64,000 nt of DNA from Bosea sp. 29B. GTDB taxonomy: Bacteria; Pseudomonadota; Alphaproteobacteria; Rhizobiales; Beijerinckiaceae. Under the pieces are notes generated by a model. That model was not told the origin of the DNA, did not search any database, and was given only the letters and a program-made list of their open reading frames with translations. A program made the translations under genes and the position numbers. The DNA is taken from the NCBI RefSeq assembly GCF_902506165.1, contig NZ_LR733817.1, positions 372,001-436,000 on the forward strand. The letters run 5' to 3'. Each line of letters opens with the position of its first letter. Position 1 is the stretch's first letter. Positions 5,043-20,931 of this stretch are shown piece after piece.

Positions 5043-6320
5043 TCAGCGTTTGGTTCGGGAGGGGCTCGTCAGGATTGCGAACGTGCTCGCCGTCGCGACC
5101 AGAACGATGGCCAGGAAGACCATGACCGCGCCGATCCCGAAACCCGCAGCGATCGGCCCCGTGCAGGATTGAAGAATGGCGGCACCGGCGAAGAACGCGA
5201 GATTGACCGCCGCGAGCGCCTTCCCGACATTCTCCGGGGCGACGACGACCCGCGCCATCGCGAACAGGAGCGGCTGCGACGCCAAAGCTGCGCCGAGCAC
5301 GAAGAACGCAGCGACATCGAAGCTCGGCGGGAGTTGCGTCAGCCCCATCCCGGTCGACAGCGGGCCACCCGGCCCGCCGGCAGCGACCGCCAGCAAGACA
5401 GCGGCCGCAATGAGATGGGTAAGCGTCAGGACGAGCCGGCGGTAGCCGAAACGCCGATCCGCGATACCATAGAGCATCGGGCCGGCGACGAGCGCGAGCG
5501 TCAGGGGAAGCAGGGCGTTGCCCGCCTCCAGACGGGAGATGTGCTTGATCTCCATCAACCAGACGCCGCCCCAGAGCCCTCTGATCGCGATCCCCGCAGC
5601 GAAGGAGGCGAAAGCGAGGATCACGACGCCTCGCACAGCCGGCGAGAGGCCGATCCTGACGACCTGCCTCGCCTCGGAGCGCAGCGTGGCCTTGCGCTCG
5701 GTCGCGTCAGGTGCGGCTTTCGGCACCGTCAGCCAGACGAGGAAGGCAACGGTCACCGCCAGTGCGGCGGAGAGGCCGAAGCCGGTCCGCCAGCCATGGT
5801 GCTCGACGAGCCAGGCCATCGGACTTGCCGAGAGCAGCATCCCCGAATTGCCGACGCCCTGGATCAGGCCGGACCACAAGCCGAATTTCTCGGCCGTGAG
5901 CGTCTTGGCGGCCAAGGTCATCGGGCAGAGCAGCATGCCGCAGCAGCCGATGCCGAGAATGATCTGGGCGGTCAGGAAGCCCGCGGCGCCGCCGATGCAG
6001 GCGGCCAGCACGGCCCCGATGGTCACGATCGCGAAAAGCGTCAGCGACACCGAACGGACGCCGTAGCGGTCGAGGGCGACGCCGACAGGGATCTGGCCGG
6101 CGGCGAAGGCGAAGTGATAGGCCCCCGTCAGGCTGGCCAGCGTATCGGGAGAAACCGCCAGATCGGCAGCGATGACGTCCGCAGCGACCCCGGGCAAGGT
6201 TCGCAGCAGGTTGGACAGCATGTGCCCCAGCGCCAGGACGAGCAGCGGCGTGCCGAACAGGAATGCGTTGCGGGCAGCGCTTCCCTGAGGCTGTCCGCGG
6301 CTGTCCGCGATGGACGTCAC
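5043..6320 (-). CDS. MFS transporter
   Basis: 425 residues with 12 predicted membrane segments. It shows the major facilitator loop-2/3 pattern (GVALDRYGVRS near residue 75) and a repeat of this pattern in the second half (GIADRRFGYRR). The open frame continues upstream, but the GTG at 6320 has GAGGA five bases before it, and the sequence upstream is not membrane-like. Substrate unknown. It is transcribed in the same direction as the aap genes, 115 bp below aapM, but need not be in that operon. Confidence 0.87.
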   Translation of the reverse strand: MTSIADSRGQPQGSAARNAFLFGTPLLVLALGHMLSNLLRTLPGVAADVIAADLAVSPDTLASLTGAYHFAFAAGQIPVGVALDRYGVRSVSLTLFAIVTIGAVLAACIGGAAGFLTAQIILGIGCCGMLLCPMTLAAKTLTAEKFGLWSGLIQGVGNSGMLLSASPMAWLVEHHGWRTGFGLSAALAVTVAFLVWLTVPKAAPDATERKATLRSEARQVVRIGLSPAVRGVVILAFASFAAGIAIRGLWGGVWLMEIKHISRLEAGNALLPLTLALVAGPMLYGIADRRFGYRRLVLTLTHLIAAAVLLAVAAGGPGGPLSTGMGLTQLPPSFDVAAFFVLGAALASQPLLFAMARVVVAPENVGKALAAVNLAFFAGAAILQSCTGPIAAGFGIGAVMVFLAIVLVATASTFAILTSPSRTKR

Positions 6321-6435
6321 GATGTCCTCGCTTGTCTGGTGTTCCGGACGAGTTTCATGGCGGGCCGCTTCTCCGATGCCACCATATGAACCTACGGCGG
6401 AAGCGCCGGCAGATGGATTGGGGCATGGCGGCCCG

Positions 6436-7518
6436 TCATTTGCGCTGCCCCGCGGCCAGCCTCGCCTCCAGCCAAAGGCTGTAGCGGGAGGCACAGAAGC
6501 AGACGAGGAAGTAGACCATGGCGGCGAAGACATAGGCTTCCCGGTAGAAGCCGAGCCAGTTCGGATCCGTCGCCGAGACACGCGCGGTGTTCAGGAAGTC
6601 GAACATGCCGATGATGATCACCAGCGTGGTGTCCTGAAAGATGCCGATCGCCAGATTGACGAGCGGCGGGATCACCGCGCGCAGCGCCTGCGGCAGCACG
6701 ACGAGGCGGATGGTCCACAAATAGGACAGGCCCAGCGCTTTCGCCGCCTCGTATTGGCCCACCGGAACAGCCTGCAAACCGCCGCGGACGACCTCGGCGA
6801 GATAGGCGGCGACGAACAGCGTCAGCGCCACCTCGGCCCGCAGGAACTTGTCGATCGCCGAGCCGGCCGGAAGCATCAGCGGGAACAGCAGCGTCGCGGC
6901 ATAGAGCACGGCGATGAAGGGCACGCCGCGCAGCACCTCGATGAAGATCACGCAGAGCAATCGCACGCCGCCCATCTTCGAGCGACGGCCCAATGCCAGC
7001 AGGATCGCCAGGGGAAAGGCGCCCGCGAAGGCTCCGATCGCCAGCAGGAAGGTGACCGGCAGCCCGCCCCAACGCTCCGTCGGCACGAACTCACCGACGG
7101 GCCAGCCAAGCAGAAGCAACGGCACGCCGATCAGCGCACCGCCCCAAAGAAGGAGCAGGCGGCGTCCCCAGTTTGCCGGCCAGGCCGTAACGCCGAGCAG
7201 CGCCAGCATGACGAGCAGCGCCAGGCCGGCACGCCAATGCAGATGCGGCGGATAGAACCCGAAGGTGATGAAGCGCAGCTTCTCGCCGATGAAGGCCCAG
7301 CATGCGCCTGTCCCCGCCGCCGCGCAGGCGGCGCCATCGCCCTGCCAGACCGCGTCGACGACGGCCCAGCGCAGGAAGGGCGGTGCGAGCCATAGGACGA
7401 GAAGGGCGACCCCGAGCGTGATCGCGATATTGGTGCGCGAGCCGACGAGGCCCTGGCGCAGCTTGCGCCAGCGCTCGCTCCGCGGGGCAAGCGCACCGTC
7501 CTCAGCCATGGCGCTCAT
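6436..7518 (-). CDS. aapM: General L-amino acid ABC transporter permease AapM
   Basis: 360 residues, long for a polar amino-acid permease because of the extended N-terminal part typical of AapM (first membrane segment near 30–50, periplasmic loop containing WAFIGEKLRFITFGFYP). The C-terminal half carries the HisMQ-type permease domain with the EAA motif region EAAKALGLSYLWTIRLVVLP. It overlaps the end of aapQ by 4 bp (ATGA), so the two are translationally coupled. With AapQ it should form the inner-membrane channel of the broad-specificity amino-acid importer. Confidence 0.95.
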   Translation of the reverse strand: MSAMAEDGALAPRSERWRKLRQGLVGSRTNIAITLGVALLVLWLAPPFLRWAVVDAVWQGDGAACAAAGTGACWAFIGEKLRFITFGFYPPHLHWRAGLALLVMLALLGVTAWPANWGRRLLLLWGGALIGVPLLLLGWPVGEFVPTERWGGLPVTFLLAIGAFAGAFPLAILLALGRRSKMGGVRLLCVIFIEVLRGVPFIAVLYAATLLFPLMLPAGSAIDKFLRAEVALTLFVAAYLAEVVRGGLQAVPVGQYEAAKALGLSYLWTIRLVVLPQALRAVIPPLVNLAIGIFQDTTLVIIIGMFDFLNTARVSATDPNWLGFYREAYVFAAMVYFLVCFCASRYSLWLEARLAAGQRK

Positions 7519-8720
7519 GCCGCGGATCGCTCCCGCAACGCCCAGCGCCGGTTATAGGCGTTCATCGCGATGGAGACGGCCAGACTCAGCGCAAGGTACA
7601 CGAGCATCATCACGAGGATGGCTTCGAGCGCCTGGCCGGTGGTGTTGGCGGTGGTGTTGAGGATGTTGACCAGATCGGGAAAGCCGATGGCAACCGCCAG
7701 GCTCGAATTCTTGGTCAGGCTGAGATAGCTCGACGTCATCACCGGGATGATCAGGCGCAAGGCCTGCGGCAACACGATCAGCCGCATGATCCGGCCATAG
7801 GACAGGCCGAGCGCCCGGCCCGCCTCCCACTGCCCTCCCGAGACGGACAAGATGCCGGCACGCACGGTCTCGGCGATGCTGGCCGAGGTGTTGACGACGA
7901 GCGCGATCAGCAAAGCCATGAACTCGGGCGAGAGCGAGATGCCGCCCCGGATGTTGAAACCGGACAGCCTCGGCAGATCGATGGCAGGCATGGCACCGAA
8001 GAATGCGGCGATGGCCACCGGCGGCAGGGCCGCAGCGAGCACGAGCGCCGCGCTCCGCTTGAGGTTCGAGCGGCCGGTCCGGCGGGTCCGCCATTTCAGC
8101 GCGACACCGACCAACACGGCGAGCAGGAAGCTGCTGGTCAGGATCACCGGGGTCACGCCATCGTCGGCGATGAAGGGAAAGAAGAAGCCGCGATTGCTGA
8201 GCAGCACGCCCGGCAGCGGCGACAAGGCCTGCCGCGGCCCCGGCAAGGCGTGGAACAGCGCGTTCCAGAAGAAAATCTGCAGCAGCAACGGCGTGTTGCG
8301 GACGATCTCGACATAGGCCTGCACCAGGCGCGACAGCAGCGGGTTCGACGAGAGCCGGGCAATGCCGAGCGCGACGCCGAGGATGGTGGCGAGGATGCAG
8401 CCGGCCAGCGAGACGCGCACGGTGTTGAGCAGCCCGACCGCGATGGCGCGCAGATAGCTGTCGCCGGCCGAATAGGCGAGCAGCCCCTCGCCGATCTCGA
8501 AATTGGCGGCATGGCCGAGGAAACCGAAGCCGGGCGTCAGGCCGACCCGCGCCATATTGTGCACGAGATTGCTGCCGAGCAGCGCGAAGCCAAGACCGAC
8601 GATCGCGAAGATCGCCAGCTGCGTCAGCGGCTTTTCACCCCACCATTCGGCGAGCGCACGCAAAAGGCCGGGCCCTTTCGGGCCCGGCACGGCCGCCTGC
8701 AAGGATGCGGGAGAGTTCAT
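7515..8720 (-). CDS. aapQ: General L-amino acid ABC transporter permease AapQ
   Basis: 401 residues, the usual AapQ length. It has a hydrophobic N-terminal anchor, a first permease block (VEIVRNTPLLLQIFFWN), a long periplasmic insert, and a second block with the EAA loop (EAGRALGLSYGRIMRLIVLP). It lies 16 bp downstream of aapJ and overlaps aapM by 4 bp. Its first 20 codons contain a strong terminator-like hairpin (8662–8688) that may set the ratio of binding protein to permease. Confidence 0.95.
   Translation of the reverse strand: MNSPASLQAAVPGPKGPGLLRALAEWWGEKPLTQLAIFAIVGLGFALLGSNLVHNMARVGLTPGFGFLGHAANFEIGEGLLAYSAGDSYLRAIAVGLLNTVRVSLAGCILATILGVALGIARLSSNPLLSRLVQAYVEIVRNTPLLLQIFFWNALFHALPGPRQALSPLPGVLLSNRGFFFPFIADDGVTPVILTSSFLLAVLVGVALKWRTRRTGRSNLKRSAALVLAAALPPVAIAAFFGAMPAIDLPRLSGFNIRGGISLSPEFMALLIALVVNTSASIAETVRAGILSVSGGQWEAGRALGLSYGRIMRLIVLPQALRLIIPVMTSSYLSLTKNSSLAVAIGFPDLVNILNTTANTTGQALEAILVMMLVYLALSLAVSIAMNAYNRRWALRERSAA
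8662..8688 (-). terminator. Terminator-like hairpin inside the start of aapQ
   Basis: On the minus strand a perfect 9-bp stem (GCCGGGCCC / GGGCCCGGC) with GAAA loop is followed by CTTTTG. This is an almost textbook rho-independent terminator. It is not intergenic: it encodes residues of the AapQ N-terminus (PGPKGPG). It would sit just downstream of aapJ in the transcript and could reduce read-through from the highly needed binding protein into the permease genes. The structure is seen; the attenuation is inferred. Confidence 0.6.
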
Positions 8721-8736
8721 CCCTGGGCGACGACGC

Positions 8737-9771
8737 TCAACGGAACGGCGGCGAATACAGCAGGCCGCCCTGCGACCACGGCTGATTGTAGCCGCGCTCG
8801 AAGCCGACCTTGCTCTTCTTGCCGATATTGCGCTCGAAGATCTCCCCGTAGTTCCCGACCGCCTTGACGATGTTGTAGGCGAACTTCGGATCGAGCTCGA
8901 GCGCTTCGCCGAGCGACTTGTCGATGCCGAGGAAGCGCTTGACGCCGGGATCCTCGCTCTTCAGGAACTCGTCGATATTGGCCTGGGTGATGCCGTATTC
9001 TTCGGCCTGGATCGTGGCGTAGACGGTCCAGTTGACGATCTCGAGCCAGCGATCGTCGCCCGAGCGGACGGCCGGAGCCAAAGGCTCCTTCGACAGGCGC
9101 TCGGGCAGGAGCACGTAATCGTCCGGCTTGCCGAGCTGGATGCGACGCAAGGCGAGATCCGAGGCATCCTGGGTGAGTGCATCGACGCGGCCGGATTCGA
9201 GCGCGTTGACGAACTCCTTGGTCTCCTCGATCACCACCGGCTTGAAGCTCTTCTTCGTCTTGCGGAAGAAGTCGGCGATGTTGAGCTCGCCGGTCGTGCC
9301 GCTCTGGATGCCGATCGTCGCGCCGTCGAGCTCGGCCGCCTTGCTGACGCCGAGCGCCTTCTTCACCAGCAGGCCCTGGCCGTCATAGAAGACGATCGGT
9401 CCGAAGTGGAAACCGAGCTTGAAGGAGCGTGTCGCGGTCTGGGTGACGCCCGAGAGCAGGATATCGAACTCGCCCGCCTGCAGCGCCGGCAGTCGCTGCT
9501 GCGGCGAGGACGAAGTGAAGCTGACCTTATCGGCGTCGCCGAACACGGTCACCGCCAGTGCCCGGCCGAAATCGACGAAGAAGCCCTGCCATTTGCCATT
9601 GCTGTCCGGAGAGAAGAAGCCCGGCGAGGTGCCGACGCCGACTTTGATCGAACCGCGCTGCTTGATGGCGTCGAGCGTCGGCCCGGCCCAGGCGGAGGTG
9701 CCCGCCAGCAGCCCGGCGAGGATGACGGAATAGCCCAGCCCACGTCCGAGCCTGTTGGATATCACGAGCAT
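8737..9771 (-). CDS. aapJ: General L-amino acid ABC transporter substrate-binding protein AapJ
   Basis: 344 residues. Signal peptide about 1–29 ending AWA, then the type 3 solute-binding fold starting TLDAIKQRGSIKVGVGTSPG. AapJ features include QGFFVDFGRALAVTVFGD and the C-terminal ERNIGKKSKVGFERGYN. The ATG at 9771 has GAGAGGA seven bases upstream and places the signal peptide at the N-terminus; the ORF extends 16 codons further without support. It binds many L-amino acids in the rhizobial homologue. First gene of aapJQM; aapP does not follow. Confidence 0.95.
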   Translation of the reverse strand: MLVISNRLGRGLGYSVILAGLLAGTSAWAGPTLDAIKQRGSIKVGVGTSPGFFSPDSNGKWQGFFVDFGRALAVTVFGDADKVSFTSSSPQQRLPALQAGEFDILLSGVTQTATRSFKLGFHFGPIVFYDGQGLLVKKALGVSKAAELDGATIGIQSGTTGELNIADFFRKTKKSFKPVVIEETKEFVNALESGRVDALTQDASDLALRRIQLGKPDDYVLLPERLSKEPLAPAVRSGDDRWLEIVNWTVYATIQAEEYGITQANIDEFLKSEDPGVKRFLGIDKSLGEALELDPKFAYNIVKAVGNYGEIFERNIGKKSKVGFERGYNQPWSQGGLLYSPPFR

Positions 9772-10415
9772 GATGGTCCTCTCGATGTGAGCGCTCGCGA
9801 ACGGACGCGGAGCCAGCAAAATAACTCACAATATCAATGGATTATTCAAAAGATCGTTCCTTATGTCAAATGGAATGTTCTTTTTAAGAAACGGCGACAA
9901 TGAGAAAAATTTCCGCAAACCCACCTCACTCCGGAGCAATTTTCGTGACATTCTGCAAGACGACTCCATGGCTTTCGGCAGAGAGAACAGCGAGCGCGAT
10001 GGCCCTCAATCCGGGAGAATGAATCTCCGCGTCGATCAAATTATTTAATCCATTAATTTAATTGACTTCCTATCCGAGCCTTTTGCGGCGCCTCAGCTTG
10101 TTCTGCCTCCGTCGTATCACCGACCGACCAAACCGCGGCAGGAATCGCCGTAATCCGAAGAAGCGTTTCTCAGAAAGAACGACACCTTACAAATCGCGGC
10201 CGGGAGCCGCGCCTCAATTCGGCAAGATGGTGCCAATTTAACCTGATTAAGACGAATTTGCTTTATCCAGGGCCCTAGCGGCAATAAACAACCTGTCTCA
10301 GATTGTTCTTCAAAAAGAACATTCTCGTTGACGCTTGGCCCATCGGATCGCAAGCTCAGCCATGGATCAGCGCGGTCTTGAGCACAGGTCAGCGCAGTGT
10401 TTTCAGGAGTTCGAC
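9772..10415. promoter_or_regulatory. Divergent AT-rich control region between aapJ and the transporter–RLP operon
   Basis: 644 bp with no convincing gene and clearly lower GC than its surroundings. It contains inverted repeats of the form GTTCTT…AAGAAC. The best is at 10305–10320 (GTTCTTCAAAAAGAAC, 6-bp perfect arms), 95 bp before the binding-protein start. A second at 9877–9892 (GTTCTTTTTAAGAAAC) lies about 105 bp before aapJ, and a weaker one (TTTCT-C-AGAAA) at 10166–10176. Short frames here (9863–10048 plus, 10117–10476 minus) lack codon bias and were not accepted. Confidence 0.6.
10305..10320. promoter_or_regulatory. Palindrome GTTCTT-N4-AAGAAC, candidate operator
   Basis: Perfect 6-bp arms separated by four bases, 95 bp before the start of the organosulfur-type binding protein. 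Related inverted repeats lie at 9877–9892 near the aapJ promoter and at 10166–10176. Repetition of one motif across a divergent promoter region suggests a shared regulator site. Which protein binds is unknown; the Rrf2 protein encoded at 15896 is one candidate. Confidence 0.5.
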
Positions 10416-11444
10416 ATGGCGATTTGGAAGAAGCTGTCGCGCCGGCAGGCGGCGACCTTGATGGTCGGCACGGCACTGTTCTTCAGCCTCTCCGGTGCGG
10501 CCTCCGCCGCCGAGGGCCAATTGCGCATCGCCAAGCAGTTCGGCGTCGTCTACCTGCTCCTCGATGTCGCCGCCGAACAGAAGCTGATCGAGAAGCACGG
10601 CAAGGCGACCGGCGTCGACATCAAGGTCGAGTTCACCCAGCTCTCCGGCGGAGCCGCGGTGAACGACGCGCTGCTCTCGAACTCGATCGAGATCGCCAGC
10701 GCCGGTGTCGGCCCGCTCTTCACGCTGTGGGACCGCACCGAGGGCAAGCAGAACGTCAGGGGCGTCGCCTCGCTCGGCAACTTCCCCTACTACCTCGTCA
10801 GCAACAATCCGAATGTGAAGACGATCGCCGACTTCACCGACAAGGACAGGATCGCCCTGCCCGCGGTCGGCGTCTCCGTGCAGTCGCGCATCCTGCAATG
10901 GGCCTCGGCCAAGCTCTGGGGCGACAAGGAATTTGCGAAGCTCGACAAGATCAGCGTCGCCCTGCCCCATCCCGAGGCCGCCGCCGCGATCATCAAGGGC
11001 GGCACCGAGATCACCGGCCATTTCGGCAATCCGCCCTTCCAGGAACAGGAACTGGCCGAGAACCCGAACGCCCACATCGTGCTCAAATCCTATGACGTCC
11101 AGGGCGGGCCGGCCTCCTCGACCGTGCTCTACGGCACCGAGAAGTTCTACAAGGAGGCGCCGAAGACCTATCGCGCCTTCCTCGACGCGCTAGACGAAGC
11201 CGCGAAGTTCATCACCAACAATCCCGAGCAGGCGGCCGACATCTATCTCAAGGCCAATGGCGGCAAGGGCGACCGCAAGCTGCTGCTCCAGGTCATCAGG
11301 AATCCCGAGGTGACCTTCAAGGTCGAGCCGCAGAACACGCTCGGCCTCGGCCAGTTCCTGCATCGCGTCGGCGCGATCAAGAACGAGCCCAAGGCGCTGT
11401 CGGACTATTTCTTCACCGATCCGCGCATCGCTGCGGGCAGCTGA
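10416..11444 (+). CDS. ABC transporter substrate-binding protein, SsuA/TauA/NitT family
   Basis: 342 residues. An N-terminal basic stretch and hydrophobic signal peptide end near ASAAEG (about residue 33). The mature domain is of the NMT1/THI5-like fold used for sulfonates, taurine, nitrate and thiamine precursors (QFGVVYLLLDVAAEQKLIEK; later SNNPNVKTIADFTDKDRIAL). The ATG is preceded by CAGGAG at 6 bp. First gene of a tightly packed operon with its ATPase 9 bp downstream. The neighbouring RLP, cupin and Rrf2 genes suggest an organosulfur ligand, but this is context only. Confidence 0.9.
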   Translation: MAIWKKLSRRQAATLMVGTALFFSLSGAASAAEGQLRIAKQFGVVYLLLDVAAEQKLIEKHGKATGVDIKVEFTQLSGGAAVNDALLSNSIEIASAGVGPLFTLWDRTEGKQNVRGVASLGNFPYYLVSNNPNVKTIADFTDKDRIALPAVGVSVQSRILQWASAKLWGDKEFAKLDKISVALPHPEAAAAIIKGGTEITGHFGNPPFQEQELAENPNAHIVLKSYDVQGGPASSTVLYGTEKFYKEAPKTYRAFLDALDEAAKFITNNPEQAADIYLKANGGKGDRKLLLQVIRNPEVTFKVEPQNTLGLGQFLHRVGAIKNEPKALSDYFFTDPRIAAGS

Positions 11445-11453
11445 GCCCCGGCC

Positions 11454-12338
11454 ATGACGCTCGTCGCCGAGAGACGACCGCAGGGCGGTCCGCTGCCCCT
11501 GCCCGCTCGCGCGGCTGCTCCAGCCGGCGAAGGACAGGCTTCGCCTGTCTTGCTAGCTCCGCTCCTCCAGGTCGACGGCGTCAGCCTCGAATACCGCACG
11601 GCCGAGACGATCGTGCGCGCCACCCACCGGGTCGGCTTCGACGTCTACGAGGCCGACCGCTTCGTGCTGCTCGGCCCGTCCGGCTGCGGCAAGTCGACCC
11701 TGCTCAAGGCGGTCGCCGGCTTCATCGCCCCGGTCGAGGGCGAGATCAGGCTCGGAGGCCGGCCGGTCAGCGGGCCGGGGCCCGACCGCATCGTCGTCTT
11801 CCAGGAGTTCGACCAGCTCCCGCCCTGGAAGACCGTGCTCCAGAACGTCGCCTTCCCGCTGACGGCCTCGCGCACGCTTCCGCGCCGCGAGGCGCTGGAG
11901 CGTGCGCGGCACTATGTCGAGAAGGTCGGGCTCGCCAAATTCGCCGACAGCTATCCGCACCAGCTCTCCGGCGGCATGAAGCAGCGCGTCGCCATCGCCC
12001 GCGCACTCGCCATGCAGCCCAGCATCCTCCTGATGGATGAGCCCTTCGCCGCGCTCGACGCGCTGACCAGGCGCCGGATGCAGGAGGAGTTGCTGGCGCT
12101 CTGGGACGAGGTCCGCTTCACCCTGCTCTTCGTCACCCATTCGATCGAGGAGGCGCTGATCGTCGGCAACCGCGTCGCGGTGCTGTCACCGCATCCCGGC
12201 CGGCTGCGGGCCGAGTTCAACAGCCACGAATTCGATCTCGCGAGCATCGGCGGCGCACCATTCCAGGCCGCCGTCCGGCGCCTGCATGAGCGGCTCTTCG
12301 AGCATGAACACGCCGGTGCAGAAGAGGCGAAGCCATGA
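11454..12338 (+). CDS. ABC transporter ATP-binding protein, SsuB/TauB family
   Basis: 294 residues. Walker A GPSGCGKST at about 74, Q-loop in VVFQEFDQLPPWKT, signature LSGGMKQR, Walker B ILLMDEPFAALD and switch VTHSIEEA are all present, so the ATPase should be active. The PPWKTV stretch is typical of the nitrate/sulfonate/taurine class. The first 40 residues are an unusual Pro/Ala/Gly-rich extension before the domain; a later start is possible, but none has a better ribosome site. It overlaps the permease gene by 4 bp. Confidence 0.92.
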   Translation: MTLVAERRPQGGPLPLPARAAAPAGEGQASPVLLAPLLQVDGVSLEYRTAETIVRATHRVGFDVYEADRFVLLGPSGCGKSTLLKAVAGFIAPVEGEIRLGGRPVSGPGPDRIVVFQEFDQLPPWKTVLQNVAFPLTASRTLPRREALERARHYVEKVGLAKFADSYPHQLSGGMKQRVAIARALAMQPSILLMDEPFAALDALTRRRMQEELLALWDEVRFTLLFVTHSIEEALIVGNRVAVLSPHPGRLRAEFNSHEFDLASIGGAPFQAAVRRLHERLFEHEHAGAEEAKP

Positions 12339-13204
12339 GCCTCGCCCAGCCGCCGATCCGGCCGGAATATGACCAACCGCTGCCGCCCTTCATCGCAACC
12401 ATAGTCGAACGCCCACGCCCATTGCTCGAGCGCCTCGCCGGGCAGGGCTGGCTGCGCAAGGGCCTGATCCTCGTCGTGCTCGCCCTGCTCTGGGAGGCGC
12501 TGGCGCGCTGGCAGGACAACGAGCTCCTGCTCCCGACTTTCCTCGCCACGGTGCAGGCGCTGGTCGAAGGGCTGGCGAGCGGCGAATTGATCGAGCGCGC
12601 CCGGCTCTCGCTGATCGTGCTGGCGCAGGGCTATGCTGCCGGGCTGACGCTCGCCTTCCTGCTGACGACACTCGCCATCTCGACTCAAGTTGGCCGCGAC
12701 CTGCTCTCGACCCTGACCGCGATGTTCAACCCGCTGCCGGCGATCGCCTTGCTGCCCTTGGCATTGCTCTGGTTCGGCCTGGGCTCGGGCAGCCTGATCT
12801 TCGTGCTGATCCATTCGGTGCTCTGGCCGGTTGCGCTCAATACCTTCGCCGGCTTCCAGGGCGTGCCGGACACGCTGCGCATGGCCGGCCGCAATTACGG
12901 GCTCAATGGCCTGCGCTACGTCTTCGGCATCCTGGTGCCGGCGGCGCTGCCCGCGATCCTGTCCGGCCTCAAGATCGGCTGGGCCTTCGCCTGGCGCACT
13001 CTGATCGCCGCCGAGCTGGTCTTCGGCGCCTCCTCGGGCCGCGGCGGCCTCGGCTGGTACATCTTCCAGAACCGCAACGAGCTCTACACCGACAAGGTCT
13101 TCGCCGGCCTGCTGCTGGTGATCCTGATCGGCCTTGTCGTCGAGAATCTCGTCTTCGCCGCAATCGAGAAGGCGACGATCCGGCGCTGGGGCATGGCCCG
13201 CTGA
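12335..13204 (+). CDS. ABC transporter permease, SsuC/TauC family
   Basis: 289 residues with about six membrane segments and the BPD_transp_1 domain. The EAA-loop region is MAGRNYGLNGLRYVFGILVP. It starts with an ATGA overlap with the ATPase, so it is translationally coupled and forms the channel of the same importer. The next reading frame starts at or shortly after its stop codon. Confidence 0.92.
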   Translation: MSLAQPPIRPEYDQPLPPFIATIVERPRPLLERLAGQGWLRKGLILVVLALLWEALARWQDNELLLPTFLATVQALVEGLASGELIERARLSLIVLAQGYAAGLTLAFLLTTLAISTQVGRDLLSTLTAMFNPLPAIALLPLALLWFGLGSGSLIFVLIHSVLWPVALNTFAGFQGVPDTLRMAGRNYGLNGLRYVFGILVPAALPAILSGLKIGWAFAWRTLIAAELVFGASSGRGGLGWYIFQNRNELYTDKVFAGLLLVILIGLVVENLVFAAIEKATIRRWGMAR

Positions 13205-13254
13205 TGCCGCTGTCGCTCGCTTTGACCCACGCCTTCCTGCACGGATCTCCATCC

Positions 13255-14133
13255 ATGACCGCTGCCCTGCACTTCGCCGACACTCCTCGCTCCGCAATCT
13301 CCGAGGCCTCCGCCGGAGACGATTCGAAGGCCTTGTTGCGGGCGCGCTATCGCGCCGAGGGTCAGCCAGAGCCTGCGCATTGGAACGAGGTCATCGGCCA
13401 GATCCTGGCGCATCGCTCAGTGCGCTCCTACAAGCCCGATCCGCTGCCGGACGGCACGATCGAGACGCTGGTCGCAGCAGGGCAGTCCGCCGCCAGCTCC
13501 TCCAATCTGCAGGCCTGGAGCGTGGTCGCCGTTTCCGATCCCGCCCGCAAGGCGCGGCTCGCCGAGGTCACCGGCAACCAGAAGCACATCCTGCAGGCCC
13601 CGACCCTGCTGGTCTTCCTCGCCGATCTCAATCGGCTGGGCGCGCTTGGTGCCGCGCGTGAGCATGCAGTCGAGGCTCTCGACTATATCGAGACGCTGTT
13701 CGTCGCGATCATCGATGCGGCGCTGGCGGCGCAGAACGCCGTGCTGGCCGCCGAGAGCCTCGGCCTCGGCACGGTCTACATCGGCGCCCTGCGCAACGAT
13801 CCCGAAAGGGTGGCAAACGAGCTCGGCCTGCCGCCGAAGGTGTTCCCCGTCTTCGGCCTCTGCGTCGGCTATCCCGCTCCCGAGGTGGTCACCGGCATCA
13901 AGCCGCGCCTCTCGCCCGCCCTTGTCCTCCATCGCGAGCAATACGGGGCCGGCTACGCGCCTGAGCCGGTTGCGGCCTATGACGGAGCGATCCAGGGCTT
14001 CCAGAGCGAGCAGAAGATCCCGCAGGTGCCGTGGTCGCGGCAGGCGCTCGCCCGGGTCGCCGGGCCGCAATCGCTGAGCGGGCGCGACCGCATGCGCGAT
14101 GCGCTGGCTGCACTCGGCTTCATGCTGCGCTGA
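13255..14133 (+). CDS. Flavin-dependent nitroreductase family oxidoreductase (NfsA-like)
   Basis: 292 residues from the chosen ATG; an upstream ATG at 13204 overlapping the permease stop (TGATG) would add 17 residues and is possible. The FMN-binding nitroreductase fold is marked by ILAHRSVRSYKPDPLPDG (phosphate-binding RS-R near residue 55), AASSSNLQAWSVV, and the distal GLGTVYIGALRNDPERVA. Length and C-terminal tail resemble NfsA/FRP-type NADPH reductases. Its place between the importer and the RLP gene suggests a redox step on the imported compound; the natural substrate is unknown. Confidence 0.85.
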   Translation: MTAALHFADTPRSAISEASAGDDSKALLRARYRAEGQPEPAHWNEVIGQILAHRSVRSYKPDPLPDGTIETLVAAGQSAASSSNLQAWSVVAVSDPARKARLAEVTGNQKHILQAPTLLVFLADLNRLGALGAAREHAVEALDYIETLFVAIIDAALAAQNAVLAAESLGLGTVYIGALRNDPERVANELGLPPKVFPVFGLCVGYPAPEVVTGIKPRLSPALVLHREQYGAGYAPEPVAAYDGAIQGFQSEQKIPQVPWSRQALARVAGPQSLSGRDRMRDALAALGFMLR

Positions 14134-14208
14134 GGTGCCTCCGCGACGGCAGCGCTATAATGGTGGTGTGAAACGGAATGGCGGAGCCCCGCCTCAGCGG
14201 GATCGACG

Positions 14209-15333
14209 ATGAGCTGGATCGAAGTCACCTATCACCTGCGCGGCTCGCCCGAGGATGCCCAGGCGCGCGCCAGGGCGATCGCCGTCGAGCAGAGCATCGA
14301 GATGCCACCCGAGGCGGTCGACGATCCCTTCGTCCTCGGCGAGATTCTGGGCCGTGTCGTCGCGGTCGAGCCCAAGGGCAGCGGCCTGCATGCGATCCGC
14401 ATCCTGCTCTCTGCCGCCACGGTGGGCGACGATACCGGACAGCTCCTCAACATGCTGTTCGGCAATTCCTCGCTGCATGATGACCTCACGCTCGCCGACG
14501 TCGCCTTGCCGCCCGATCTGCGCACCGCGTTCGGCGATGGCCCGCAGTTCGGGCTCGACGGCCTGCGTCAGCGCGTCGGCGCCACAGGGCGCGCTCTGAC
14601 CTGCTCGGCCCTCAAACCACAAGGACTGCCACCGGAGGAGCTGGCGCGCCTGGCCGAAGCCTTCGCGCTCGGCGGCATCGACTACGTCAAGGACGATCAC
14701 GGGCTGGCGACGCAAGCCTACAGCCCGTTCCCGCAGCGCGTTTCGGCCTGTGCCGCCGCGGTGCGCCGCGCCACCACGCGGACCGGCCATCCGACCCGCT
14801 ATGTCCCGAGCCTCTCCGGCAACCTCGACGCCGTGCGCGAGCAGTTGCGCATCCTCGCACAGGAAGGCCTCGACACAGCGATGGTGGCGCCGGCGATCCT
14901 CGGCCTCGCCAATGTCCAGCGGCTCAGGCGGGACTATCCCGATATCGCCTTGCTCGCCCATCCCAGCCTGGCCGGCGCGGCGCGGATAGACCCGGCCTGC
15001 CTGACCAGGCTCTGGCGGCTCGCCGGCATCGATGCGGTGATCTTCCCCAATCATGGCGGCCGCTTCGGCTATTCCGCCGAGACGTGCCAGCGCATCGCGC
15101 AAGCTGCGCTCGCGCCGGAGCCCGGGCTCGCAGCGATCGCTCCGGTACCGGCCGGCGGCATGAGCGTGGCGCGTGTGCCGGAGATGCTCGACTTCTACGG
15201 CCGCGACGTCATGCTGCTGATCGGCGGCAACCTGCTCGCCGAGGGCGACAGATTGAGCGAGGCCACGGCCGCGTTCGTCGCCACGGTCCATCAGCACTCG
15301 CAAGCACAAGCCCTGGCACAAACCCATGCCTGA
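14209..15333 (+). CDS. RuBisCO-like protein (form IV), non-carboxylating
   Basis: 374 residues spanning the RuBisCO N-terminal domain and TIM barrel. My hand alignment shows N86 (RuBisCO Asn123), K136 in LKPQGL (Lys175), K161 and D163 in YVKDDHG (Lys201, Asp203), H251 (His294), G316–G317 and G339–G340 (phosphate loops) kept. Changed are Q138 (Lys177), H164 (Glu204), P252 (Arg295) and A315 (Ser379), and the loop-6 lysine is absent. It therefore cannot fix CO2 but is probably an isomerase or enolase on a sugar phosphate. RLPs are known as 2,3-diketo-5-methylthiopentyl-1-P enolase, methylthioribulose-1-P isomerase and 3-oxo-isoapionate-4-P enzymes. Overlap of 8 bp with the cupin gene favours the second type. 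Confidence 0.92.
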   Translation: MSWIEVTYHLRGSPEDAQARARAIAVEQSIEMPPEAVDDPFVLGEILGRVVAVEPKGSGLHAIRILLSAATVGDDTGQLLNMLFGNSSLHDDLTLADVALPPDLRTAFGDGPQFGLDGLRQRVGATGRALTCSALKPQGLPPEELARLAEAFALGGIDYVKDDHGLATQAYSPFPQRVSACAAAVRRATTRTGHPTRYVPSLSGNLDAVREQLRILAQEGLDTAMVAPAILGLANVQRLRRDYPDIALLAHPSLAGAARIDPACLTRLWRLAGIDAVIFPNHGGRFGYSAETCQRIAQAALAPEPGLAAIAPVPAGGMSVARVPEMLDFYGRDVMLLIGGNLLAEGDRLSEATAAFVATVHQHSQAQALAQTHA

Positions 15334-15790
15334 CACGACCAAGGATGCTCCCAACCTGCGCCGGCATGAAGACGGCTTCGCCTGGCAGGGTGTTGAACGA
15401 CTCGCCTACAAGCAGGATGGCGATGCACCCTTCCGCGACGTCTCGCGCCAGATCCTGTTCTCGCGATCCGATCTTGCCGGCGAGCTGCGCTATTTCGAGG
15501 TCGGGCCGGGCGGTCACACCACATTGGAGCGCCACGGCCATGTCCATGGCGTGATGATCGTGCGCGGTCGTGGCCGCTGTCTCGTCGGCTCGCAGGTGAG
15601 TGAGATCGGCCCGCTCGATCTCGTCACCATCCCCGGCTGGACCTGGCACCAGTTCAAGGCCGCGCCCGACGAACCGCTCGGCTTCCTTTGCCTCGTCGAT
15701 GCCACCCGCGACCGCCCGGCTCTGCCGACGCCGGAGGAACTCGCGACCTTGCGCGCCTCGCCGGAGATCGCTGCCTTCCTCGACGGCTGA
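15326..15790 (+). CDS. Cupin-domain protein overlapping the RLP gene
   Basis: 154 residues, single small beta-barrel. Metal ligands are likely among H64, E68, H70, H72, H74 (GGHTTLERHGHVHG) and H108 (GWTWHQF). It overlaps the RLP gene by 8 bp. In Rhodospirillum rubrum a cupin next to the methylthioribulose-1-P isomerase RLP removes methanethiol from methylthioxylulose-5-P, giving deoxyxylulose-5-P. The same order here suggests a related job, but this is inference from neighbourhood and fold only. No mtnA, mtnK or mtnP gene is present in the window. Confidence 0.85.
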   Translation: MPDTTKDAPNLRRHEDGFAWQGVERLAYKQDGDAPFRDVSRQILFSRSDLAGELRYFEVGPGGHTTLERHGHVHGVMIVRGRGRCLVGSQVSEIGPLDLVTIPGWTWHQFKAAPDEPLGFLCLVDATRDRPALPTPEELATLRASPEIAAFLDG

Positions 15791-15895
15791 GCCGCAGCCG
15801 AAGCGCCATCGCCGGGCAACGTCCCTATAATCGCCCTCGCTTGCAGTTCCCGCAAAATAGATCGATATACTGTACTTCTAAGCGGGGGACGGGCA

Positions 15896-16345
15896 GTGCT
15901 GACCAACAAGGGCAAATACGGCATCAAGGCCATGGTCCACCTCGCCCGGCTCGATGCCGGCGAGACCGCCCAGATCGCCGAGATCGCCCAGCGCAACAAC
16001 ATCTCGAAGAAGTTTCTCGACGCGATCCTGCTGGATCTGCGCAATGCCGGCATGCTGCGCAGCAAGAAGGGTCCGGGCGGTGGCTACGCGCTGGCGAAAC
16101 CGGCCCGGACCATCAAGGTTGGAGCCGTCATTCGGGCCCTGGAAGGGCCGATCGCGCCGATCGACTGCGCCAGCCAATCGGCGTTCAAGCCGTGCCAGGA
16201 TTGCGGAGACATCGAAGCCTGCGTCGTCCGCGGGGTGATGCGGGAGGTCCGCGACGCCATGGCGGCGGTCGTCGACAACACGACGATCGCCGATCTCGTC
16301 GGCCGCGCCGCAGCCCACAAGCCCGAGATCGACTTCGCGATCTAA
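15896..16345 (+). CDS. Rrf2-family regulator with cysteine cluster
   Basis: 149 residues. Winged HTH at about 1–65 (LTNKGKYGIKAMVHLA; ISKKFLDAILLDLRNAG; KGPGGGYALAKP), dimer helix, and cysteines C91, C100, C103 and C109. IscR and NsrR use three cysteines in this loop to hold an Fe-S cluster, so a redox, NO or sulfur-sensing cluster is plausible. The GTG start has GGGGGAC 5 bp upstream. It follows the cupin gene by 105 bp in the same direction and is the obvious candidate regulator of the transporter–RLP genes. Confidence 0.9.
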   Translation: MLTNKGKYGIKAMVHLARLDAGETAQIAEIAQRNNISKKFLDAILLDLRNAGMLRSKKGPGGGYALAKPARTIKVGAVIRALEGPIAPIDCASQSAFKPCQDCGDIEACVVRGVMREVRDAMAAVVDNTTIADLVGRAAAHKPEIDFAI

Positions 16346-16421: not shown

Positions 16422-16574
16422 ATGAATCAACAGTTCGCCCCGCCCGTCGCCGCCGATATCCATTCCGACGCGTTCAAGGCGGTGATGCGCAATGTCGCGG
16501 GCGCGGTCAGCATCATTACCGCCTCGCATGACGGCGAGCGCGCCGGCCTGCCCGTCTTGCGGTTGAGCGTGTGA
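16422..16574 (+). pseudogene. Flavin reductase-domain protein, truncated N-terminal stub
   Basis: The first about 45 residues match the start of flavin reductase-like (FMN-binding split barrel) proteins: FKAVMRNVAGAVSIITASHD then GERAGL. Intact members continue with a TA.. stretch and about 110 more residues. Here the match ends after GERAGLPV near 16558 and the frame stops at 16574, next to IS sequence. It is co-directional with the Rrf2 gene (76 bp upstream) and was probably the last gene of the RLP operon. Such reductases serve two-component flavin monooxygenases, for example in sulfonate desulfonation. Confidence 0.75.
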
Positions 16575-16739: not shown

Positions 16740-16819
16740 TGATCTGAGCCCTTAAGACTGGACCGCTTTGGGTTAGAGTTTCCGCGTCGTTTCCCTTGGG
16801 CTGGGAGGAGCGGAAGACG

Positions 16820-17086
16820 ATGAAGGATTCGAAGTTCTCGGACGCGCAGAAAGCGTTCATCCTGAAGCAGGGCGCAGACGGGATTCCGGTGGCGGAGATC
16901 TGCCGGCGGGCTGGAATCAGCCAGGCGACCTATTTCAATTGGAAGAAGAAGTACGACGGGCTTCTGCCGGCCGAGATGCGCCGGCTGAAGCAGCTCGAGG
17001 ACGAGAACGCGAAGCTGCGCAAGCTCGTCGCCGACTTCGCCCTGGACCGCGAGATGCTGCAGGACGTCATTCGCCGAAAGCTCTGA
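16820..17086 (+). CDS. IS3 family transposase OrfA
   Basis: 88 residues, full length for the IS407-like group. HTH residues IPVAEICRRAGISQATYFNW are followed by the leucine-rich coiled coil MRRLKQLEDENAKLRKLVAD, the standard OrfA layout. The start at 16820 is preceded by GGGAGGAG. OrfB normally arises by frameshift near the 3' end of this gene. Since orfB is truncated, OrfA is probably without function here. Confidence 0.92.
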   Translation: MKDSKFSDAQKAFILKQGADGIPVAEICRRAGISQATYFNWKKKYDGLLPAEMRRLKQLEDENAKLRKLVADFALDREMLQDVIRRKL

Positions 17087-19212: not shown

Positions 19213-19610
19213 ACGACAACCAGGCGACCGGACCGGTAGCAACCCAGCCCGGCACCAGCCAGAACAACAAAAGCGGGCCCGAAAGGGCCCGCTAACAGAT
19301 TCGACGACGTCGCTGCACGGCGTACAATTTTGGGATTGCGACTAGGCCTCAACGGCACGCCCGCGCCAGCAGCGGAAGTCGATCCCTTCCCTGAAAGGGG
19401 CCTCTAGGAGTGCCTGAAGCGTGCAGGCTCATAGAGGCGACACCGGTGACACCAGGTTGCTGCTCGCTAGTGCGAGTTTGAGCTGGAAAACGAAAACTTT
19501 TGCATCTCAGCATGCCATGGTTTTAGGTGATTAACAGCTCGTTAACCGTGGAAGCGTAATCTTTCTTCTGTGAGATTTCAATTCGCCAATCCTGTATGAG
19601 GAATTTGGCC
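19213..19610. other. Intergenic region with GC-rich hairpin
   Basis: 398 bp between the hydrolase and the pilus operon. A 9-bp perfect stem (AGCGGGCCC, GAAA loop, GGGCCCGCT) occupies 19272–19293. The T-rich tail that would make it a rho-independent terminator (TTTTGTTGTT) is on the minus strand, where no gene ends; on the plus strand it could only be a weak terminator for the hydrolase. The AT-rich last 100 bp should hold the pilus promoter. No other gene or repeat was seen. Confidence 0.5.
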
Positions 19611-20096
19611 ATGGCAAGAATAAGACTCTTGTCTGCGCTTTTAATGTGTACAATTACCTCTGGCGGAACCGAGGCAGCGACTGCTACCGGGAACTTCCAA
19701 GTTCAGATCAATATCCAGGCGAACTGCATCGTCGCCAGCGCTTCGGATCTGAATTTCGGCAATGCTGGCGTCTTGTCCGCGAATATTGATTCGACGAGTA
19801 CGATCAGCGTGCAATGCACCACGTCGACTCCCTACACGGTCGGCTTCAACCAGGGTGTGAACGGCGGCTCAGTCACGACCCGCCAGATGGCTGGGGCGGG
19901 CGGACTGATCAACTATTCGCTTTTCCGCGACACTGGCCGCACGCAGAACTGGGGCTCGACGGCGGGTAGCGACACCGTCGCGGGCGTCGGCAACGGGGCA
20001 GTGCAGAACTATACCGTCTACGGCCGGGTGCCTGCACAGACCACGCCCGCGCCTGCGCTCTACACCGACACCATCACGGTGACGGTCACCTACTGA
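19611..20096 (+). CDS. Spore coat U domain pilin subunit (CsuA/B-like)
   Basis: 161 residues. Signal peptide about 1–25, then one SCPU (spore coat U) domain with the hallmark pairs NFQVQINIQANCIVASASDL…FG and the C-terminal YGRVPAQTTPAPALYTDTIT. This is the secreted major subunit type of archaic chaperone–usher pili. The ATG at 19611 has GAGGA 8 bp upstream; an ATG at 19596 lacks a site. GC content is lower than in the next genes. First gene of a four-gene pilus operon. Confidence 0.92.
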   Translation: MARIRLLSALLMCTITSGGTEAATATGNFQVQINIQANCIVASASDLNFGNAGVLSANIDSTSTISVQCTTSTPYTVGFNQGVNGGSVTTRQMAGAGGLINYSLFRDTGRTQNWGSTAGSDTVAGVGNGAVQNYTVYGRVPAQTTPAPALYTDTITVTVTY

Positions 20097-20214
20097 CGAC
20101 GGCCAGAGCCGCCGGCCTGCTGACGATCGCTTCATGAGGCAACCGAGAGGCTGGACGACGCTGCTTGCGCGGCGCCGATCGCCTCCGCTTTGCCAGGACC
20201 AGGAGGAGGGCAGG

Positions 20215-20931
20215 ATGAGAAGCACGGCAATCGGCACGGCCCTCGCGGCCCTGGTCGCCGGAATGGCAGATGCGGCGTCGCTGCAGGTGACTCCCGTGCT
20301 GCTGGACCTTCCGACCCCGGGGAACGCAGCAACGATCACCCTGCGCAACACCGATGTCGAGCCGATCACGGCGCAGGTCCGGGTTTTCCGCTGGATCCAA
20401 CGTGACGGAACAGAACGGCTCGAGCCGACGGACGAGGTCGTCGCCAGCCCGCCCGTCGTGCAATTGCGCTCCCGCCAAGACTACATGGTGCGCGTCGTCC
20501 GGGTAACCGGCGGCCCGGCCGGCGGCGAGGCGGCCTTTCGGCTGGTCGTGGATGAGTTGCCCAAACCGAACCGAACGCCGGGAACCGTTGCGCTGGTCAT
20601 GCGCCATGTCATTCCCGTCTTTTTCACGGATCGCTCCGCATCGCCGGCATCGCTGACGTGGTCGGCGAGCCAACACGGGAAAAGCCTGGCGATCGGCGCG
20701 GCGAACAGCGGCGATCGCCGGGTCAGGCTCGCCGCTGTGACGGTTCGCGACGGGGCCGGGAAAGTGGTCGCGGTCAACAAGGGATTGCTCGGCTATTCCC
20801 TCGGCCATTCCGCGATGCAGTGGGTTCTCCCCTCACAGCCAGGCTCGAAATCGGGCGCTCACTTCACGATTTCCGGGCTGACGGAGGCAGGTCCGTTCAA
20901 TGCAACGCTGCCGATGTCAGCGGGCCGGTAA
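20215..20931 (+). CDS. Periplasmic pilus chaperone (CsuC-like, PapD family)
   Basis: 238 residues. Signal peptide about 1–23 (ends ADA), then two Ig-like domains. The N-terminal PapD domain shows LQVTPVLLDLPTPGNAATIT and LRSRQDYMVRVVR. The start at 20215 has AGGAGGAGGG directly upstream; the open frame reaches back to 20134 without support. It should hold pilin subunits in the periplasm and deliver them to the usher, whose gene overlaps its 3' end by 32 bp. Confidence 0.9.
   Translation: MRSTAIGTALAALVAGMADAASLQVTPVLLDLPTPGNAATITLRNTDVEPITAQVRVFRWIQRDGTERLEPTDEVVASPPVVQLRSRQDYMVRVVRVTGGPAGGEAAFRLVVDELPKPNRTPGTVALVMRHVIPVFFTDRSASPASLTWSASQHGKSLAIGAANSGDRRVRLAAVTVRDGAGKVVAVNKGLLGYSLGHSAMQWVLPSQPGSKSGAHFTISGLTEAGPFNATLPMSAGR

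Follow-up and report, generated by a model that had tools for sequence, protein, structure and literature searches.

What a RuBisCO-like protein (RLP) and a cupin are doing within an operon for an organosulfur-type importer is the question raised by a gene string of Bosea sp. 29B, which lies in the stretch of 64,000 nucleotides analysed here (hereafter the window). A preliminary description, made from the sequence alone, reported seven co-directional genes with overlaps of 4 and 8 bp and proposed that the whole operon might import and degrade one new methylthio- or sulfo-sugar. The genes and their neighbours are as follows:

10416..11444, + strand: substrate-binding protein (SBP) of the SsuA/TauA type (Pfam NMT1-type; below the TIGR01728 cut-off; fold search)
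11454..12338, + strand: ABC ATPase, nearest to taurine/nitrate importers (below equivalog cut-offs)
12335..13204, + strand: ABC permease, nearest to SaoP/SsuC/nitrate/taurine permeases (below cut-offs)
13204..14133, + strand: nitroreductase-family flavin enzyme, NfsA/flavin-reductase-like (190.7 bits against NfsA equivalog PRK10765, cut-off 223)
14209..15333, + strand: RLP of the RLP–cupin clade, predicted 5-methylthioribulose-1-P isomerase (profiles, PDB match, tree, cupin adjacency)
15326..15790, + strand: cupin, predicted 1-methylthioxylulose-5-P methylsulfurylase, Rru_A2000 orthologue (PDB 3jzv)
15896..16345, + strand: Rrf2-family regulator with four cysteines, C-x8-C-x2-C-x5-C (Pfam; alignment)
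16422..16568, + strand: cut-off start of a flavin reductase gene (49 codons; 65% to residues 1–49 of the intact L189 gene)
16796..17086, + strand: IS3-type transposase OrfA, downstream of the cut flavin reductase gene (45 of 160 bits against the IS3 model)
6436..9819, − strand: divergent neighbour operon with an amino-acid-type SBP (8737–9819), two permeases (7515–8720 and 6436–7518) and its own palindrome

The seven plus-strand genes at 10416..16345 were confirmed as open reading frames, with Pfam supporting each name (in order, NMT1-type SBP, ABC_tran, BPD_transp_1, Nitroreductase, RuBisCO_large, Cupin_2 and Rrf2). Both overlaps were found as reported, at 12335–12338 between ATPase and permease (4 bp) and at 15326–15333 between RLP and cupin (8 bp); permease and nitroreductase share a further 1 bp. 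Gene identities thus rest on homology, and the functions proposed below are read from them. The ORF caller used on relatives loses some real genes and retains antisense ones; tblastn searches with proteins of the window or its relatives, at a 50% query-coverage cut, therefore decided on gene presence. The complete SBP-to-cupin order recurs in five of the seven close-group loci, window included (RLP 84–91% identical to that of the window), and the cupin gene adjoins the RLP gene in 66 of 70 loci counted, which argues against a chance arrangement. In relatives a flavin reductase gene, intact in L189, follows Rrf2.

From their sequences, RLP and cupin resemble the pair that is known from the methylthioadenosine (MTA)–isoprenoid shunt, in keeping with the Rhodospirillum rubrum type proposed at the outset. 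The best solved relative of the cupin is PDB 3jzv (Rru_A2000; E 1.1e-62, residues 3–154), whose function as 1-methylthioxylulose-5-P methylsulfurylase is taken from the consulted parts of PMC4958253. The best PDB match of the RLP is 3qfw (358 bits, next structure 128), for which no relevant paper was found in the open-access literature. The shunt calls for an RLP of the DeepYkr type; that of the window scores below the MtnW, OiaX and RuBisCO cut-offs (158.7 of 409 bits for MtnW, 78 of 700 for OiaX), and the grouping with isoapionate or enolase RLPs, considered earlier as a counter-indication, was not seen by profile score. In a tree built without the R. rubrum and R. palustris RLPs, it groups with the cupin-partnered clade of 69 rows (support 100/100), separate from 19 rows without a cupin found; some rows come from the same or near-same assembly (L051 and L052, which are identical; L030 and L065), and one clade member, L072 of genome G203, sits on a long branch without a cupin. 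The 70 loci counted for cupin adjacency comprise the window, L144, L145, L003–L059 and L061–L071, minus L042, which is cut by a contig end. Outside this count lie L072–L089 from the same search (18 loci, 34–43% identical), none of which gave a cupin match in flanks of about 1.5 kb.

The preliminary description had also noted that mtnA, mtnK and mtnP are missing, which holds for the window; mtnA (C1:124817–125809) and mtnP (C1:126639–127349), however, are present in the genome, scoring above their curated cut-offs about 257 kb from the operon. A known route to the RLP substrate is therefore encoded: MtnP and MtnA would make 5-methylthioribulose-1-P from MTA, the RLP would isomerise it, as in R. 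rubrum, and the cupin would then free methanethiol, leaving deoxyxylulose-5-P. Presence of the two genes is not specific, because RLP-free Bosea genomes have both (21 genome handles searched, including the genome of L030 and G167, which are the same or near-same assembly). A fucA-like class II aldolase gene adjoins mtnA, which may mean that the genome also encodes the other branch of MTA use described for R. palustris.

The importer appears to be of the organosulfur type, as first proposed, with an SsuA/TauA-like SBP and family scores below the cut-offs. The SBP reached 70.2 bits against TIGR01728 (E 1.6e-19; cut-off 163.5), and a fold search placed TauA at ranks 1–2 and SsuA at rank 3, all below 20% identity, at which the fold distinction is weak. 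Four monooxygenase queries returned no match to an FMN monooxygenase in the window. RLP-free Bosea genomes carry the set of SBP, ATPase, permease, nitroreductase, Rrf2 and flavin reductase, whole or in part, beside FMN-dependent monooxygenases; a monooxygenase gene stands beside the set in G406, G443 and G398. G406 encodes the SBP (85%), ATPase (87%), permease (87%), nitroreductase (75%) and Rrf2 (79%), plus flavin reductase and a divergent monooxygenase, and G443 has monooxygenase, nitroreductase, Rrf2 and flavin reductase. By our own reading, G406 holds an additional nitroreductase-like gene on the opposite strand, between nitroreductase and Rrf2. Seven genomes of the order that gave no RLP match at 1e-40 also encode SBP orthologues (76–80%); there the importer stands without nitroreductase or RLP, and a monooxygenase gene follows the permease in four of the seven loci and is missing from three. 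Given their occurrence in RLP-free relatives beside flavin-dependent monooxygenases, importer, nitroreductase and Rrf2 have a job of their own.

These distributions bear on the original proposal of a dedicated pathway, in which the importer would take up a methylthio- or sulfo-sugar, a kinase encoded elsewhere would activate it, and RLP and cupin would split off the thiol. The tightly packed single gene string with its overlaps speaks for it, as do two loci (L010 and L034) in which RLP–cupin adjoins other TauA/SsuA-type importers and the distant RLP of G203, where a related Rrf2 gene precedes RLP, mtnK and an ABC importer (L202). The proposal is nonetheless quite improbable: importer and nitroreductase occur without RLP in G406, the seven other genomes of the order have the importer without nitroreductase or RLP, three Bosea loci (L005, L006 and L007) have RLP–cupin without this importer, no sugar kinase was found by Pfam among the seven genes, and mtnA and mtnP exist in the genome. 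The idea that the whole operon degrades one new sugar was not borne out.

With regard to the history of the locus, the gene order is retained in most of the close group, but no more than 8 of the 67 Bosea genomes have this RLP; a ninth match, in G415, is of another kind (33%). Absence of the order from related genomes, named at the outset as a counter-indication, thus applies in part. Among the eight loci, the importer is present in five and absent from three. L007 has another SsuA-family SBP 7 kb downstream of RLP–cupin. In L006 the nitroreductase gene survives as its 3′ end, ahead of the RLP, and in L005 the SBP promoter survives with a weaker palindrome (two mismatches; no exact-pattern match) directly before the RLP; in both relatives the importer was lost at a later stage and left these relics. 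In the clade of the window, RLP–cupin is placed between nitroreductase and Rrf2, and we infer that the pair was inserted into the operon here rather than lost elsewhere.

A rival view is that the position is an accident, with RLP–cupin a drifting two-gene housekeeping unit that has no physiological link to the operon. RLP–cupin neighbours elsewhere are many different genes, the importer is missing from three of the eight Bosea loci, and the consulted parts of PMC5893883 report that the rate of methanethiol release from MTA by R. palustris stays constant whether or not sulfate is present, and term its MTA use housekeeping. We regard this view as rather unlikely, since the order is retained in most close-group loci, L005 has lost the importer yet keeps its promoter directly before the RLP, and levels of RLP, MetN/MetQ and O-acetylhomoserine (OAH) sulfhydrylase rise in R. 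rubrum when MTA replaces sulfate, according to the parts of PMC4958253 consulted.

The promoter region further points to sulfur. A palindrome of the form GTTCTTT..AAAGAAC lies upstream of the operon, and three palindromic sites were mapped between the divergent operons:

9876..9893, no strand: operator-like palindrome TGTTCTTTTTAAGAAACG, 66 bp upstream of the divergent amino-acid-type SBP gene (differs from the perfect form at three positions; fits the degenerate pattern exactly)
10164..10181, no strand: second palindrome, core GTTTCTCAGAAAGAAC, 243 bp upstream of the SBP gene (degenerate-pattern match)
10304..10321, no strand: perfect palindrome TGTTCTT-N4-AAGAACA, 103 bp upstream of the SBP gene

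A −35-like TTGACG (10328–10333) directly follows the perfect palindrome, and both are present in L003, L004, L144, L145 and L189; a site at a distance like that of 10164..10181 occurs in L004, L144, L145 and L189. The window holds two matches to the perfect form at up to three mismatches, with 0.33 expected and 4 of 100 shuffles reaching two. A looser palindrome, GTTCTTNNNNAAGAAC with two mismatches, proved useless (244 matches versus 217 in the reversed control) and gave way to a tighter pattern, derived from sites known by then and having an A/T-rich centre. Tight-pattern sites were found in 47 of the 67 Bosea genomes, with 104 matches versus 8 for the reversed pattern, summed over the genomes. 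Genes of methionine, organosulfur or glutathione type (metN-like, monooxygenase, organosulfur/amino-acid-type SBP, nitroreductase, OAH sulfhydrylase or GsiB-like) lie behind 64 of all 81 distinct exact sites in the 67 genomes, a proportion that is descriptive because the genes asked were chosen after part of the loci had been viewed; 13 sites stand before an importer that has no known role in sulfur use, and the remaining 4 before none of the queried genes. The metN-like genes begin 556–821 bp behind their sites, the OAH sulfhydrylase gene, whose product could reuse methanethiol, is that of G405, and in G417 (L286) the same amino-acid-type operon with its palindrome lies divergent to an NtaA/DmoA-type monooxygenase.

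Allowing one mismatch gave 7 + 7 sites in the own genome versus 3 + 4 in the control, so single sites of this kind mean little; of two new ones viewed, L269 precedes a methionine-type importer and L270 has no assigned gene. Five promoters of the own genome are marked, namely those of the SBP operon, the divergent amino-acid-type operon, two monooxygenase genes or operons, and the methionine-type importer (one-mismatch site). RLP–cupin is kept in L006, which has lost the palindrome promoter, and in L007, which has no palindrome at up to three mismatches. Overall, the link of the operon to sulfur, suggested earlier, is strong.

The same evidence weighs on a possible thiamin link, whereby a THI5/NMT1-kind importer would bring in the pyrimidine precursor and deoxyxylulose-5-P from the cupin would feed the thiazole half of thiamin. 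Pfam names the SBP NMT1-like, the thiamin-binding SBP 4nmy stands at rank 9 of the fold search, and RLP–cupin of Bosea lathyri is followed by convergent thiE and two genes read as thiG and thiO (thiG without an NCBIfam match). Against these observations, TauA and SsuA outrank 4nmy, within a weak fold distinction at <20% identity, relatives' operons contain sulfur-type monooxygenases, and the palindrome marks methionine and organosulfur genes, which leaves this link very improbable indeed.

As to the regulators, the C-x8-C-x2-C-x5-C cysteines of the Rrf2 protein are invariant in 21 aligned sequences, window included, and lie in the region of the Fe–S ligands of IscR and NsrR. Together with the neighbouring genes, they make a sulfur or redox sensor plausible. 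The Rrf2 gene adjoins a flavin reductase gene in 8 of 13 further loci. Rrf2 was considered as the palindrome binder and rejected as the main reading, the palindrome being present in 29 of 46 Rrf2-free genomes and missing from 3 of 21 with Rrf2; a weak positive association is possible (Fisher p 0.085), and the regulator of the palindrome is probably another protein. The Rrf2 gene could have an operator of its own in the conserved stretch that precedes it. SamR and SahR were likewise discarded, as the site does not fit the 24-bp SamR and 20-bp SahR palindromes, whose common part is ATC-10 nt-GAT in the parts of PMC4239095 consulted.

We therefore favour, with a probability of roughly two in three, a reading in which sulfur limitation controls methylthio salvage jointly with organosulfur uptake, and not a new sugar pathway. 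The RLP–cupin pair of the Bosea clade would have its place within an organosulfur operon older than this arrangement, flanked by the nitroreductase and the Rrf2–flavin reductase unit. The importer would bring in a sulfonate-like substrate of flavin-dependent monooxygenases whose genes lie elsewhere, and the nitroreductase may provide reduced flavin. The two halves of the operon would be linked by shared control via one palindromic site, which also marks methionine import and organosulfur monooxygenases, as well as OAH sulfhydrylase in a single genome, and which would place both under sulfur limitation, sulfur being the presumed signal; MTA sulfur would thus be salvaged as methanethiol when sulfur is scarce. 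That RLP–cupin instead acts on an imported thio-pentose or related organosulfur molecule rather than the cell's own MTA, a nutritional RLP use under sulfur-starvation control, we consider decidedly unlikely. If the favoured reading is true, RLP-based methylthio salvage in the Bosea lineage is an arm of a sulfur-starvation regulon, not housekeeping, with methanethiol and an isoprenoid precursor as its outputs. The palindrome offers a concrete handle, with its five promoters in the own genome and a testable genus-wide regulon.

Among known systems, IscR, NsrR, RirA and CymR share the Rrf2 domain with the window protein, which differs in scoring below each cut-off (CymR 96.2 of 195, IscR 84.6 of 207.55, NsrR 66.4 of 182 and RirA 63.9 of 193 bits), in its four invariant cysteines and in the flavin reductase neighbour seen in 8 of 13 further loci. 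The ssu/tau and NtaA/DmoA-type operons, comprising ABC importer, FMN-dependent monooxygenase and flavin reductase, resemble the window operon in importer type and SBP fold, and relatives of the latter have the monooxygenase and flavin reductase neighbours; the window operon itself deviates in giving no monooxygenase match, in its cut flavin reductase and in the presence of RLP–cupin. No RLP inside a sulfonate operon was found in the open-access literature on RLPs, the shunt, Bosea sulfur use and Rrf2, as covered by titles, abstract beginnings and parts of PMC5893883, PMC4958253, PMC6302742 and PMC4334135, and the consulted parts of the first two describe no operon like that of the window for R. 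rubrum or R. palustris. The shunts of R. rubrum (RLP Rru_A1998, cupin Rru_A2000) and R. palustris (RPA2169, RPA2170) have the RLP beside the cupin, as in Bosea, whose cupin is orthologous to Rru_A2000 and whose mtnP and mtnA are located elsewhere. Unlike these, the Bosea pair lies inside an importer–nitroreductase–Rrf2 operon, behind a sulfur-type palindrome.

The seven genes of the operon, their order and the two overlaps (4 bp between ATPase and permease; 8 bp between RLP and cupin) claimed in the preliminary description were all confirmed. In this 6.33-Mb genome, genes for a substrate-binding protein (SBP), an ATPase, a permease, a nitroreductase, a RuBisCO-like protein (RLP), a cupin and an Rrf2 regulator span window positions 10416–16345 on the forward strand. 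A flavin reductase gene 3′ of Rrf2 retains its first 49 codons only, being cut off ahead of an IS3-type gene. The stretch ATAGATCGATATACTGTACTTCTA at 15850–15895, ahead of the Rrf2 gene, is near-identical in four related loci (L003–L006) and may be that gene's own promoter or operator. Further downstream, a chaperone-usher pilus-like gene set was recognized by ORF reading at 19596–24324.

For the cupin, a clear relationship was found to Rru_A2000 (PDB 3jzv; E = 1.1e-62), identified as the methylthioxylulose-5-P sulfurylase in PMC4958253. Among solved structures, the RLP matched 3qfw best (358 bits, versus 128 for the runner-up), and it scored far under the NCBIfam cut-offs of MtnW and OiaX. 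A tree of 88 RLPs placed it within a 69-row clade (support 100/100) and, inside this, in an eight-row Bosea group that includes Bosea lathyri. The closest named RLPs, at 88–90% identity, were those of a Rhizobiales isolate (2SD), Bosea sp. Tri-44, a MAG labelled Methylobacterium and Boseaceae bacterium BT-24-1. The cupin gene was adjacent to the RLP gene in 66 of the 70 loci counted, more distant in two and not found in two; none was seen in 18 more distant RLP loci outside this count. Residues K161-D162-D163-H164 of the RLP and E68, H70, H72, H74 and H108 of the cupin, all present in the window proteins, are among those at least 97% conserved across the 70 loci. The genome also carries mtnA and mtnP, ~257 kb from the operon, with a fucA-like class II aldolase gene adjoining mtnA. 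Across 21 genomes, including RLP-free Bosea, mtnA and mtnP scored above cut-off in 21 and 18, respectively; the RLP substrate can therefore be made, which does not imply that the RLP needs it.

A second RLP group (loci L203, L321–L332 and L202), 34–43% identical, gave no cupin match. By ORF reading, 13 of the 14 loci viewed have one or both transketolase-like halves beside the RLP, nine of them both; those of L322 were checked by NCBIfam and fell below cut-offs. Matches to mtnK plus mtnA were found in 8 of the 12 loci L321–L332, some with a ribose-type importer, and in L325, L327 and L331 a ~765-codon gene, read from its ORF as a molybdopterin-type S- or N-oxide reductase, adjoins the cupin-less RLP. 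The group appears to be a further RLP route, for methylthioribose-like sugars; a literature search on an RLP–transketolase route for methylthioribose returned none. L202 (genome G203, 5867–14660) combines Rrf2 (65%), mtnK (above cut-off), a glycerol-1-P-dehydrogenase-like gene and a distant RLP with a PfkB-like kinase (our own reading) and a NitT/TauT-type importer; the window's amino-acid-type importer genes recur nearby. The other RLP of Bosea sp. 29B (G000:C1:2522470-2525033) is closest to OiaX, and the product of the adjoining gene to OiaK, both below cut-off; with TRAP importer-like genes alongside, this is probably an acid-sugar operon.

The SBP–ATPase–permease–nitroreductase block precedes RLP–cupin in five of the seven close-group loci (window, L003, L004, L144 and L145) and is absent there in L005, L006 and the more distant L007 (Bosea lathyri). 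Rrf2 lies behind the cupin in five of the seven, and elsewhere in the genome for L144 and L145. Upstream of the RLP, L006 has 238 bp at 82% to the window, spanning the nitroreductase 3′ end and spacer, and L005 has 52 bp at 81% to the window SBP promoter, including the −35 and the palindrome described below (two mismatches). Retaining such relics, both loci seem descended from the full operon, and L005 has kept the SBP promoter for its RLP. In L007 (9373–13160), a flavin reductase relative (48%) is immediately 5′ of RLP–cupin, which is followed by convergent thiE and probable thiG.

In RLP-free Bosea, the importer, nitroreductase and Rrf2 set stands by itself, in whole or in part. In genome G406, the SBP, ATPase, permease, nitroreductase, Rrf2 and flavin reductase genes follow in that order; a monooxygenase gene is divergent to them, and one extra nitroreductase-like gene lies on the opposite strand, separating nitroreductase from Rrf2. 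The set of G443 lacks the importer and consists of monooxygenase, nitroreductase, Rrf2 and flavin reductase, with no known gene between the last three. Relative to this set, the window RLP–cupin thus occupies the position between nitroreductase and Rrf2. Insertion of the pair into an older set is the most straightforward reading, with loss of RLP–cupin from other Bosea genomes as a less simple one. At 13 further Rrf2 loci, flavin reductase adjoins Rrf2 in eight, and a monooxygenase match occurs somewhere within the 18–19-kb stretch in eight.

Upstream of the SBP gene, the following sites were found (window positions, palindromic, ahead of the forward-strand operon):

10304, perfect palindrome TGTTCTT-N4-AAGAACA, directly 5′ of TTGACG
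10164, weaker palindromic site
9876, weaker palindromic site

The pattern GTTYYTHWDARARAAC, derived from sites already seen, was present in 47 of 67 Bosea genomes, with 104 matches on two strands versus 8 for the reversed pattern. Classed by a gene list drawn up after part of the loci had been seen, the 81 distinct places comprised 34 ahead of a metN-like gene, 30 preceding organosulfur SBPs, monooxygenases, the window's amino-acid-type SBP, nitroreductase, O-acetylhomoserine (OAH) sulfhydrylase or GsiB-like genes, 13 ahead of a branched-chain-type importer and four before none of the genes asked. OAH sulfhydrylase and NtaA/DmoA scored above their NCBIfam cut-offs; the names metN, GsiB and alkanesulfonate monooxygenase come from top matches below theirs. 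Of the five exact sites in Bosea sp. 29B, three are in the window; the other two precede an NtaA/DmoA-type monooxygenase operon and an alkanesulfonate-monooxygenase-like gene, respectively. A one-mismatch site lies ahead of genes resembling metNIQ by gene order. The palindrome's regulator is probably not Rrf2. At metN-like loci (L271, L272 and others), the palindrome lies 556–821 bp 5′ of the gene, with a recognizable short ORF ending VTLEQLGI.HWS.HT.F in between in 20 of 34. At the 13 branched-chain-amino-acid-type importer sites (L277–L280, L285 and others, in several Bosea genomes), it lies 96–352 bp upstream, and this importer may take up a sulfur compound.

Within the order, SBP relatives at 1e-40 were found in 52 of 397 genomes. 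The fold of the SBP model (mean pLDDT 87) most resembles those of TauA and SsuA; a thiamin-binding SBP ranks ninth. In the alphaproteobacterial loci L010 and L034, RLP–cupin stands beside other SsuA/TauA-type importers. Most likely, the importer and RLP–cupin halves share control, not substrate. As a whole, methylthio salvage by RLP–cupin, under sulfur-limitation control together with organosulfur uptake, is the best explanation, at a probability of roughly two in three. That RLP–cupin sits in the operon by accident of position, with no physiological link, is considered improbable. Seven SBP relatives of 76–80% identity come from genomes without an RLP match, and the permease is followed by a monooxygenase gene in only four of these seven loci (two being named, as NtaA/DmoA-type above cut-off and alkanesulfonate-monooxygenase-like below it), which slightly strengthens the accidental account and slightly weakens the salvage reading.

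The enzymes themselves are already known; no description of the operon context, its sulfur-type site or the genus-wide site list was found in the consulted parts of the literature searched. Shared control fits Rhodospirillum rubrum, in which, according to PMC4958253, RLP, MetN/MetQ and OAH sulfhydrylase are jointly elevated on methylthioadenosine (MTA). By contrast, Rhodopseudomonas palustris releases methanethiol from MTA irrespective of sulfate, as stated in the abstract of PMC5893883, and it is this difference that makes the Bosea arrangement interesting.
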